Assembly (NCBI GenBank): GCA_012522955.1
Contig: JAAYJK010000127.1
Location: 1-64,000 of the forward strand
Source of the DNA: Syntrophomonadaceae bacterium
Lineage (GTDB): Bacteria > Bacillota > Syntrophomonadia > Syntrophomonadales > Syntrophomonadaceae
Reading direction: 5' to 3'
Length of the DNA stretch: 64,000 nucleotides
Positions 41,467 to 64,000 of the stretch are shown here, piece after piece (within the stretch, counting starts at the first letter, position 1; each line of letters opens with the position of its first letter). The notes beneath the pieces were generated by a model. The model did not search any database. It saw nothing but the letters and a program-made list of their open reading frames with translations, and had not been told where the DNA came from. The position numbers and the translations under genes were made by a program.

Positions 41467-41489
41467 CCATCATCCTCAATATTTTTGAT

Positions 41490-41650
41490 GCTTTCGGGCA
41501 GGTTTCCTGGCTTCCGACTCCAACGTCTGTTGGCCAGCCTTCCCAGGATAAGCCCAGTGGCTAATTGGCCAGACTCGCCGGTTACAGTGGCGGGACCGCT
41601 CAGGATTTAAACCTGGATTCCCTTTTACCCCTTTATGGGCACCCGGAAAC
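41490..41650 (-). promoter_or_regulatory. cobalamin riboswitch aptamer
   Basis: Read on the minus strand, the block starts GTTTCCGGGTGCCC, contains AGGGAATCCAGG and the B12-box string GCCACTG twice-flanked by paired G+C-rich arms (TCCCGCCACTGTAACCGG), and ends GCCAGGAAACCTGCCCG. These match the conserved core of cobalamin riboswitches. With the terminator that follows, binding of adenosylcobalamin should shut off cobT-cobU-cobS-cobC. Confidence 0.9.
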
Positions 41651-41802
41651 ATTTACTCCTTATATTAACTAACTTATTATATTTTGGTTATTATTGCAAG
41701 CATGGTTTAAAGTGTTTATAGTGATAATTGAGAACGAGTCACGCCTGACTCGCTAATAAATGAGTCAGGAAACCATTTCTGATTTATATAGGAGTTGAGA
41801 TA

Positions 41803-60437: not shown

Positions 60438-60960
60438 AATATCTGCGGCACGAAATTGCCTGACTGAAATATAGTCATAAATCCAAGAATACCTCAGCTC
60501 TCCTTAAGCATAAAACATTTGCTCTGCTAAATCTAAATGCATATTTAATATATTATGAAAAGTGAAAATCCAAGATATAAGTGCAGTATATTTCGCGCTT
60601 GTGATTTTTTTGTCTAACTTTGTCCTATTATAATATAAGTTGCTTCTAAAGCCCATAGCAAAAAACTTTCAGATTGATGCAGTGCCTAACAAGACTAAAA
60701 ACCGGCTGGGGACAGCAGATGCCCACCTATAGTGTAAAGGAGTGAAATTAGGATTCATCGACTGTAATTAACCGCTGTAGCAGAATCCGGAAAGACTTGG
60801 GGAGTAATTTTGGGGGATCGTTGGACTTAAAGAAAGCTTTCTGACATATATATTATCAGGGATGAAAAATACTTATTGAAATATGACTGCAGATCTGGCA
60901 AAATACAGGTGTAGGAATAAAATCAGATTTTGGTTTTATTGGAAGATATGCATGATCACA
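60438..60960. other. intergenic region between nuo promoter and tandem leaders
   Basis: No gene is supported. The promoter of the dctP leader must lie here or just downstream, but I see no strong consensus pair. A TATAAT string near 60635 has no -35 partner. Confidence 0.5.
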
Positions 60961-61076
60961 AGGTAGTAAGGTAAGTACGGTAGGTAAAAGAATGAAGGGT
61001 TATTTCCTTAAGCTCATCAAATTGAGCGGCTTGGGTAATAGCTTTATTCTTCGGCTCCTGCGGGAGTTTTTTTATT
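60961..61076 (+). ncRNA. candidate structured leader RNA, copy A
   Basis: The copy opens with a GGTA-rich block (60961-60990, four GGTA in 30 bases) and then a stem of 10 pairs with one G-U (60988-60997 with 61042-61051) enclosing a hairpin (61012-61015 with 61024-61027, 8-base loop). A short terminator CTCC/GGAG with seven T follows at 61055-61073. The same order and the near-identical GGTA block recur in copy B 230 bases downstream. Behind the terminator an AAAGGAGG (61091-61098) stands before no long gene. It looks like an attenuating RNA, possibly a riboswitch or a protein-bound leader. I recognise no known class. Confidence 0.65.
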
Positions 61077-61188
61077 TACTGTCCATAAGAAAAGGAGGCG
61101 AAGAAAGAGTAGCTTTGTTTCTTGAATTGTGACCACTGTCTTGAGAACCCATTTCTTTAAGGCAGGCATATGGAATGCTTAACAACAA

Positions 61189-61303
61189 AAGGTAGGAAGG
61201 TAAGATGGTAGGTAAAAGAGCGGTGTTATCCCGGCATTTTCTGGCCGGGCCTGGTTTAGCAGGTTTTCAGCACCATTCTGGCAACTCCCAGGGGGAGTTT
61301 TTT
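61189..61303 (+). ncRNA. candidate structured leader RNA, copy B, before dctP
   Basis: Same architecture as copy A. The GGTA-rich block (61189-61218) matches copy A at all but about three positions. The closing stem is 61217-61225 with 61271-61279 and the inner hairpin is CCCGGC/GCCGGG (61230-61235 with 61244-61249), again with an 8-base loop. The terminator AACTCCC/GGGAGTT lies at 61283-61299 and is followed by T. The stem differs in sequence from copy A but keeps pairing. It ends 30 bases before the dctP start codon, so it should control the TRAP transporter. Confidence 0.7.
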
Positions 61304-61332
61304 CTTGCCTGAAACAGACAAGGAGGAGAATA

Positions 61333-62418
61333 ATGCAATTTTTCTTGGGTAGAAACAAAGATATTGGAGATTGGAGTAAAATGCTCTTATCCCTGTTGCT
61401 TATCTTGATATTGGGTGCGGCCATGGGATGCTCCAATACTGGAAATGACTCCGGGCAGAAACCGGTAATTGAATTGAGACTGGCTCATTTCTTCCCCAGC
61501 ACTCACCCAGCTGAAATGGATTTGATACAACCCTGGATCTCGGCAATAGAAGAAGCCACGGACGGGCAGGTAAAAATCGTCAGTTATCCCAACCAGACAC
61601 TATTAAATGCGGATTCTATATATGCTGGAGTAGTAGATGGCAGTACTGACCTGGGTCTTTCCTGTTTTTCATACACTAGGGGCCGTTTCCCGGTGTTGGA
61701 GGTATTTGAACTGCCGGGGATTACTTATAATAACTCAAAAGTGGCCAGCAAAGTAGCCTGGGAAGGTATCAAGGAGCTAAATCCCCAGGAAATCCAGGAC
61801 ACCAAGTTGATGATGGTCCTTACTACCGGCCCGGGTGATTTGTACACCAAGACTCCAGTACGCATACTGCAAGATATAAAAGGTATGGAAATCAGGGCCA
61901 CCGGGCTCAGCGCTACCACCCTGCAAGCTTTGGGAGCTGTACCGGCAGCCATGCCCCAATCTGATGCCTATGAAGCTCTAACTAAAGGGGTAGTTAAAGG
62001 AAATCTGGGACCTATCGAAGTTCTGAAAGGATGGAAACAAGCCGAGGTCACCAATTATATCACCCAGACTCCATTCCTTTACAATACCCTGTTTTTTATA
62101 ACCATGAATCTGGATAAATGGAACTCATTGGATCCTTCCATTCAGGAGGCTATAGAAGCAGTCAATGAAGAGTATTTCGAAAAGGTAGCCATTTCTTTAT
62201 GGGATATGCAAAATGAAGATGCAATGCAATATGCGGTAGATGAACAAGGGATGGAAATTTTCACCCTGTCTCCAGAAGAAAGCCGGCAATGGATAAGTCT
62301 GGTCCAACCTATTCAAGATGATTTTGTAAGGCGTATGAACGCTGAGGGAAATCCGGGACAGGAAATACTGGACACCGTTAAAAGACTGGCTGATCAATAT
62401 AATGAAGAATACCAATAG
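61333..62418 (+). CDS. dctP: TRAP transporter substrate-binding protein DctP
   Basis: Extracytoplasmic binding protein of 361 residues, probably a lipoprotein: a hydrophobic segment (about 17-34) ends in AAMGCSN, giving a lipidated Cys near residue 33. The DctP family features are RLAHFFPSTHPAEMDL, GMEIRATGLSATTLQALGA, with the Arg that binds the carboxylate of the ligand, and AMPQSDAYEALTKGVVKG. The substrate is probably an organic acid; it cannot be named. AAGGAGGA lies 6 bases before the ATG. Confidence 0.9.
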   Translation: MQFFLGRNKDIGDWSKMLLSLLLILILGAAMGCSNTGNDSGQKPVIELRLAHFFPSTHPAEMDLIQPWISAIEEATDGQVKIVSYPNQTLLNADSIYAGVVDGSTDLGLSCFSYTRGRFPVLEVFELPGITYNNSKVASKVAWEGIKELNPQEIQDTKLMMVLTTGPGDLYTKTPVRILQDIKGMEIRATGLSATTLQALGAVPAAMPQSDAYEALTKGVVKGNLGPIEVLKGWKQAEVTNYITQTPFLYNTLFFITMNLDKWNSLDPSIQEAIEAVNEEYFEKVAISLWDMQNEDAMQYAVDEQGMEIFTLSPEESRQWISLVQPIQDDFVRRMNAEGNPGQEILDTVKRLADQYNEEYQ

Positions 62419-62437
62419 GATAGGAGGTGCAGTTAAT

Positions 62438-62923
62438 ATGAATAAAGCCAGTCACTGGATTAAAGAGATAAGCCAACATATGAACAATCTGGCAGGCGTG
62501 TGCATTGTAGCAGTGATGCTCTTGGTGGTGAGCAATATCTTGCTGCGAGTTTTGTTACATCGTCCGGTCTTAGGTACCTATGAATATGTCAATATGATTA
62601 CGGCAGTAGCTATTGGACTTTCCCTGGCCTATTGCGCTTATCAAAATGGTCATATCGCTGTGGATTTTATCATCCAGCGTTGCTCCCAGAAAATACAGAG
62701 AACAGTGGATATAATTACCCATATTATCTCCATCTCCTTCTGGAGTGCATCGGCCTGGTATGTAGCCAAATATGCTCAGACTATGCTGGATAGCAATACA
62801 GTGTCACCAACTACTCAGGTTCCATTATCACCGGTAGTGTACTTGATTGCTTTGGGCCTCCTGGCCTTAAGCCTGGTCTTAGCCCTCAGGTTAAGTCAAT
62901 CGCTAAAGAGGGCTTTTCGATGA
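62438..62923 (+). CDS. dctQ: TRAP transporter small permease DctQ
   Basis: Four-helix membrane subunit of 161 residues. LLRVLLHRPVLGTYEYVNMIT contains the conserved GTYE motif of the family, followed by YCAYQNGHIAVDFI. I chose the ATG at 62438 with AGGAGGTG 9 bases before it; an ATG at 62402 lies inside dctP and has no site. Partner of the large permease that follows. Confidence 0.9.
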   Translation: MNKASHWIKEISQHMNNLAGVCIVAVMLLVVSNILLRVLLHRPVLGTYEYVNMITAVAIGLSLAYCAYQNGHIAVDFIIQRCSQKIQRTVDIITHIISISFWSASAWYVAKYAQTMLDSNTVSPTTQVPLSPVVYLIALGLLALSLVLALRLSQSLKRAFR

Positions 62924-64000
62924 ATTCTCTAATTATAGGACTTTTAGGCTTGGCTGCTTTTATACTCTTATTAGTACTGAGAATGCCCATCGCCTATGCT
63001 ATGGCCCTGGTAGGATTTCTTGGTTTTAGTTTGCTGACCTCCATCTCATCTGGATTCAGTATGGTAGCCAAAGAAATATATAATACTTTTTCTTCCTATT
63101 CATTGGGTGTAATTGTCATGTTTATCTGGATGGGTTTTTTAGCTTACTATTCCGGCATCGGCACCAGATTGTATGTATTTGCCTACAAGCTGATAGGGCA
63201 TTGGCCTGGAGGGCTGGCCATAGCCACCCAGGTAGCCTGTGGCATTTTTGGCGCCATATGCGGGTCGAATACGGCTACTTCTGCTACCATGGGAGCCATT
63301 GCCCTGCCGGAGATGAAGAAGTACCGGTATGATATGTCACTGGCTACAGCCAGTATTGCCGCCGGCGGAGTCCTGGGGGTATTAATTCCTCCCAGTGTAA
63401 TTTTTATTGTTTATGGGATGGCAACCGAACAGTCCATTGGCAGGCTGTTCATGGCCGGGATTATCCCGGGCCTGCTGCTAATGCTCCTATACATTGCCGT
63501 TATTGCGGCTTTAACCCTGCGCCAACCCCTTTTGGCTCCTCCGGGTCCCCGGAGCAATTGGAAAGAGCGTCTTGAAAGCCTGCGCGGTGGTCTGGCTGAA
63601 GTCTTATTTGTTTTTGCCCTCTCTATGGGAGGTCTTTTTGCGGGCTGGTTTACTCCTACTGAAGCCGGTGCAGTAGGGGCGGCTGGCGTATTGCTGGCAG
63701 CACTGCTGGGAAGACACCTGGATAGGGAAGGTTTTAAGAAATCCCTTTTTGATACCACCCGAACTACAGCCATGATCATGCTGATGATTGCCGGGGCCAT
63801 GATATTTGGCCGCTTTATGGCTATCAGCCGGGTGCCTTTTGAACTAGCTGCCTGGGCTGGTTCTTTGCATCTCCCACCGGTAGGCGTACTAGCTCTGATT
63901 CTGCTGATATACTTTATTCTGGGTTGCTTCATTGATGCTCTGGCCTTGATTTTACTGACCATTCCCATATTTTTTCCAGTGGTAGTTAATACCCTAGGCT
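62920..64000 (+). CDS. dctM: TRAP transporter large permease DctM (partial)
   Basis: The ATG at 62920 overlaps the dctQ stop by 4 bases (ATGA). The open frame runs to the window edge (360 codons) without a stop. Family strings: GIFGAICGSNTATSATMGAI, YDMSLATASIAAGG, then LGVLIPPSVIFIVYGMATEQ and GWFTPTEAGAVGAAG. About ten membrane helices are visible. It is the sodium- or proton-coupled transport channel of the TRAP system. The 3' end lies beyond the window. Confidence 0.92.
   Translation, partial: MNSLIIGLLGLAAFILLLVLRMPIAYAMALVGFLGFSLLTSISSGFSMVAKEIYNTFSSYSLGVIVMFIWMGFLAYYSGIGTRLYVFAYKLIGHWPGGLAIATQVACGIFGAICGSNTATSATMGAIALPEMKKYRYDMSLATASIAAGGVLGVLIPPSVIFIVYGMATEQSIGRLFMAGIIPGLLLMLLYIAVIAALTLRQPLLAPPGPRSNWKERLESLRGGLAEVLFVFALSMGGLFAGWFTPTEAGAVGAAGVLLAALLGRHLDREGFKKSLFDTTRTTAMIMLMIAGAMIFGRFMAISRVPFELAAWAGSLHLPPVGVLALILLIYFILGCFIDALALILLTIPIFFPVVVNTLG

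Follow-up and report, generated by a model that had tools for sequence, protein, structure and literature searches.

This locus raises the question of why two similar leader RNAs stand one behind the other in front of a transporter operon, and which regulator reads them. The window, by which we mean the whole analysed stretch of 64,000 nucleotides, carries both copies and the operon on the forward (+) strand. Copy A (60958–61083) is a complete leader attenuator that matched the covariance model over all positions, with an E value of 2.2e-25 in a search of the whole genome, and it is kept in five genomes. It consists of a repeat block GGTAGTAAGGTAAGTACGGTAGG (60962–60984), which is nearly invariant within the genus and is a candidate protein-binding site, a P1 hairpin with a variable interior (60988–61051, basal strands 60988–60997 and 61042–61051) and an intrinsic terminator (61053–61074), in which a stem with a UGCG loop is followed by a T-run and UCCUGC is complementary to the GUAGG of the block. 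The position frequencies over 95 elements mark the block's three NAG triplets, UAG at 60964–60966, AAG at 60973–60975 and UAG at 60981–60983.

Copy B (61187–61311; E 1.8e-22 in the whole genome) is a second complete attenuator, with the repeat block GGTAGGAAGGTAAGATGGTAGG (61191–61212; UAG 61193–61195, AAG 61202–61204, UAG 61209–61211), P1 (61217–61279, basal strands 61217–61225 and 61271–61279) and an intrinsic terminator (61283–61305). It is followed by a ribosome-binding site (AAGGAGG at about 61320) and by dctP, dctQ and dctM in this order. The dctP gene (61333–62418; PF03480, E 3.1e-44) encodes the solute-binding protein of a TRAP transporter, dctQ (62402–62923; PF04290) the small permease subunit, with a true start perhaps further in, and dctM (62920–64000; PF06808), which continues past the window end, the large permease subunit.

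An earlier note on this DNA described two copies with four GGTA units each, closing stems, hairpins and terminators, and all of these were found in place. It also pointed to compensatory base pairs, A-T at 60996/61043 against T-A at 61224/61272 and A-T at 60995/61044 against G-C at 61223/61273, and both changes were confirmed in the sequence; they are more than a chance likeness, since the tandem and the element recur in other genomes, as set out below. Its view of the two copies as attenuator leaders was borne out by the repeat block, P1 and terminator found in both copies and in the homologues. The suggestion of a duplicated copy A whose gene has been lost was not upheld: a pattern search found the A–B tandem before dctP in all five genomes of the genus, the distance between the two copies being 221–257 bases, and copy A is not followed by any reading frame that has a start codon. 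Behind copy A stands AAAGGAGGCGAA (61091–61102, +), with AGGAGGCGAA conserved there in each of the five genomes and never followed by a start codon, so copy A is not the remnant of a gene that broke down in a single genome. It is a plausible guess that two serial attenuators give a tighter shut-off in this genus, which is close to Syntrophomonas according to the named records.

Single copies of the element were found in most of the order and beyond. A first covariance model, built from ten sequences of the genus, matched 34 of the 63 genomes of the order, while a second model, built from 42 sequences, matched 41 of these 63 and, in a phylum-wide sample of 398 genomes, 68, at a threshold of E 1e-3 that lets in some false matches. 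The pattern scan also gave hits outside Bacillota, which we put down to chance or to repeats. The covariation was not above that of shuffles on the ten genus sequences alone. On the 42 homologues, the structure of P1 and terminator was 91% paired and 13 of 15 pairs changed on both sides, in an alignment that was fitted to the structure and thus leans in its favour; with the same reservation about the alignment, none of 500 shuffles and none of six slid versions approached this pairing and covariation. The selected RNA structure proposed earlier thus agrees with the strong covariation of P1. The interior of P1 is not conserved, and the repeat block is the constant part. A search of Rfam 15 with the window leaders and 13 homologous loci gave no match at gathering score, and permissive settings gave weak hits far below it, so the earlier statement that the leaders belong to no described class also held, and homologues with a covarying stem were found.

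The conserved element reads UAG-NAYGG-UAG-NAYGG-UAGG and stands before P1 and the terminator. The four GGTA units of each copy are real, and they are better described as NAG triplets within an octamer UAGNAYGG. A block has about three unpaired NAG triplets, 7–9 nt apart from start to start; the steps are 8–9 nt in most elements and 7 nt in a few, such as between the second and third triplets (T2 and T3) of copy B. Between the last two triplets the step is 8 nt in 78 of the 95 distinct elements and 7 nt in 7, and NAG is present at the expected T2 and T1 steps along with T3 in copies A and B and in 77 of the 95. In the 8-nt class, an invariant A and G in the middle triplet follow from the way the class is defined; all four bases (U, A, C and G) occur at the first position of this triplet, and the spacer is NAYGG. 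A further upstream unit was found in 46 of the 95 elements, compared with 2.7 in shuffles, at a gap of 12–58 nt. A G-quadruplex formed by the GG runs was considered and rejected, as the GG pairs are not invariant. AGGUAAG could also pair with CUUGCC behind the T-run; judged by reading alignments, this pairing was set aside too, as it fits the genus and not clearly other genera. A pair of GGCAGGAATT and GTAGAATAA, resembling a sigma-H type promoter, recurs before leaders of TRAP transporters (L023, L024, L029, L030 and L041).

The genes behind the element indicate what it controls. Its members mostly precede DctP-type TRAP transporters, and others precede an OFA/MFS carrier. In many genera the element stands before aroF, encoding DAHP synthase, and several of these elements head operons of the aroF-tyrA-aroA type; in the window's own genome it lies before aroF at C4:8942–8994. 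Further targets are tyrA (prephenate dehydrogenase), a hisC-type aminotransferase, trpX (tryptophan ABC binding protein) and tryptophanase/tyrosine phenol-lyase. No match to trpE was obtained in the window's own genome. As judged from these gene neighbourhoods, the element family is a regulon of aromatic amino acids, covering both synthesis and uptake. It is this wider regulon, which could not be seen from the window, that gives the function. From its theme, an aromatic amino acid or the corresponding keto acid is the probable substrate taken up by the window's TRAP transporter. Element-like repeats were also seen before sodium:solute symporter genes (L114 in G084, L263 in G074 and G000 C112:14803), which are possibly members of the regulon.

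The clue to the regulator was that two weak matches of the element sat before hutP-family genes. The window's genome encodes a HutP family protein (G000 C107:49410–49793, E 3.8e-49) beside the chorismate mutase gene aroH, and HutP (PF09021) is present in all 35 high-quality genomes of the order. In the phylum sample, 65 of the 68 genomes with the element encode it, compared with 192 of the 330 remaining ones, counts that are uncorrected for phylogeny. All 30 genomes with strong element matches have HutP, and the three exceptions that lack it have weak matches. With family assignments checked, aroH follows hutP in 42 of 58 loci; hutP is also a neighbour of trpX, the element lying in between, and elsewhere of aroF. 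Six hutP genes carry a block and terminator themselves (L260, L272, L312, L316, L320 and L325). Elements before hutP at L284, L297 and L307 were rejected because they fall within the last part of the preceding reading frame. Taken together, the position of hutP, its co-occurrence with the element and its apparent autoregulation all point to a HutP-family protein as the most likely regulator, as far as sequence comparison can tell. The presumption of the earlier note that the repeats suit an oligomeric RNA-binding protein agrees with the blocks of three NAG triplets, to which binding is predicted. According to a review, the HutP hexamer of Bacillus recognises NAG triplets in clusters of three. 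The present system resembles the HutP antitermination of the B. subtilis hut operon in that such clusters lie in a terminator-bearing leader and a PF09021 protein is encoded in the genome. HutP-type sites have a second triplet cluster about 20 nt away, to which the upstream unit of some elements, at its gap of 12–58 nt, may or may not correspond.

The clostridial subfamily of HutP is far diverged and only remotely similar to the solved Bacillus protein. The clostridial proteins match PF09021 at 167.7 bits and B. subtilis HutP matches it at 111.3 bits, and phmmer and profile searches of clostridial HutP against the PDB found nothing. A single-sequence AlphaFold model of clostridial HutP reached a mean pLDDT of 47.6 and was too poor for use. 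In a weak profile alignment, the motif SHALYHATMEAL of Bacillus HutP, which we take to hold the two histidines for the metal and ligand (L-histidine/Mg2+), aligns with GAVAGATREAI of the clostridial proteins, where both histidines are replaced by glycine. The loss of both ligand histidines suggests that the clostridial protein is likely to have a ligand different from that of Bacillus HutP. A second, divergent hutP paralogue lies 8–13 kb from the TRAP-transporter element in genus g4 (G006 C154, G007 C39 and G009 C2), and the element of this genus is the most divergent of the order.

We consider it fairly likely that copies A and B are serial attenuators of the aromatic regulon, in which a HutP-family protein binds the triplets and causes termination when the end product is plentiful; both the binding and the direction of control are what we infer. 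With no protein bound to the leader, the last repeat GGUAGGA would pair with the 5' arm and loop of the terminator (UCCUACC or UCCUGC), enclosing P1. This pairing would act as an antiterminator, and transcription would read through. When the aromatic end product is plentiful, the liganded HutP-family protein would hold the NAG triplets and no antiterminator could arise, so the terminator would form and the transporter genes would be turned off, which would amount to end-product repression. The complementarity of block and terminator was computed: the median duplex energy was -7.2 kcal/mol, compared with -5.2 kcal/mol for control terminators, and 30 of the 95 elements ranked in the best 10%. 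The four-base loops of the terminators are mostly UGCG or UACG and never UUCG, and a purine is kept opposite the U of GUAGG.

Several points stand against HutP as the regulator. Bacillus HutP sites have uniform 4-nt spacers and no conserved spacer sequence, whereas the spacers of the element are 5–6 nt long with the conserved NAYGG. The middle triplet is UAA in the trpX leaders of one family, and the similarity to the solved protein is remote, as noted above. Bacillus HutP antiterminates, which is opposite to the proposed direction, in which the bound state would terminate. Other differences from the B. subtilis hut system are that the genes are aromatic and not histidine genes and that the block lies upstream of the terminator. 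In the window the upstream unit is degenerate and the antiterminator of copy B is weak, and MtrB co-occurs with the element too.

The last point leads to MtrB (TRAP), which is the main rival to HutP. It was the first binder that we considered, on account of the UAG repeats and the co-occurrence: MtrB is encoded in the window's genome (L259) and found in 59 of the 68 genomes with the element, compared with 141 of the 330 remaining ones, again uncorrected for phylogeny. It would bind the UAG triplets when tryptophan is plentiful and cause termination, as on the B. subtilis trp leader. The fixed A and G of the triplets and the presence of trpX in the regulon fit this explanation, and the element does resemble the TRAP system of B. 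subtilis in that NAG triplets overlap the proposed antiterminator, the bound protein would favour the terminator and tryptophan-related genes are controlled. However, TRAP sites have about 9–11 NAG triplets with 2–3 nt spacers, while the block has about three triplets with 4–6 nt spacers of conserved sequence, and GAG is depleted upstream. In the same genus the trpE leaders have classical GAG/UAG sites with mostly 2-nt spacers. Moreover, the element is kept in genomes with no mtrB match (G006, G009, G040 and G045, of which the last three are good assemblies and G009 is 100% complete in 20 contigs), and HutP is present in eight of nine element-bearing genomes that lack MtrB. On the canonical trpE sites and the elements in MtrB-negative genomes, MtrB was demoted, and we regard it as an unlikely binder.

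It is quite improbable that the block is a DNA operator, on which a repressor would bind the tandem 8-bp repeats just downstream of the promoter with the terminator being incidental. Tandem direct repeats do lie near promoter-like -10 boxes at several loci, but nearly every locus has a terminator behind the block, P1 covaries, the block is complementary to the terminator arm and it has no dyad symmetry. The least probable explanation, and a very doubtful one, is a riboswitch whose RNA would itself bind an aromatic amino acid or related metabolite with no protein. It would suit a conserved leader that serves an amino acid regulon and contains an attenuator and a covarying stem, but the conserved part is unpaired repeats, and the ligand-binding stems that the earlier note had also allowed for were not supported, given the unconserved interior of P1 and the shortest trpX and aroF leaders, which have a 21-nt block, a terminator and little more and are too small for a folded aptamer.

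Returning to control by a HutP-family protein, the family bears a name taken from histidine utilisation, and about two in three of the genomes sampled across the phylum encode a member. With slightly less confidence than in the reading of the window itself, we lean towards the view that HutP-family proteins are mostly sensors of aromatic metabolites that would use leaders with UAGNAYGG repeats to govern how aromatic amino acids are made and taken up, a system that was absent from the literature searched. Our search, mostly without subscription journals, found nothing on a UAGNAYGG leader RNA or on HutP with chorismate mutase, and these leaders form a large, phylum-wide and apparently undescribed set in Firmicutes. 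If this is true, a function would be given to a very widespread conserved protein that is now labelled just 'HutP', and Firmicutes would have a control system for aromatic amino acids additional to T-boxes and MtrB. For those TRAP and OFA transporters of syntrophic bacteria that are otherwise unassigned, it would also predict the class of substrate.

The leaders share with the T-box leaders of aromatic amino acid genes a terminator-based design and the same pathway, but no Rfam T-box match was found at the element loci. A T-box-like GGGTGGTACCGCAG was observed before trpE in several genera (L068, L069, L071–L073 and L076) and MtrB sites in others, suggesting that the control of trpE has changed inside a single order. 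In this order mtrB has dnaE on one side and pfkA (and pyruvate kinase) on the other, at L042–L047 and L259 (G000 C26), and G000 and G013 of the genus keep mtrB though no trpE was found in them. Elsewhere in the window, a cobalamin riboswitch (RF00174, 108.6 bits) lies at 41480–41661 on the reverse (-) strand.
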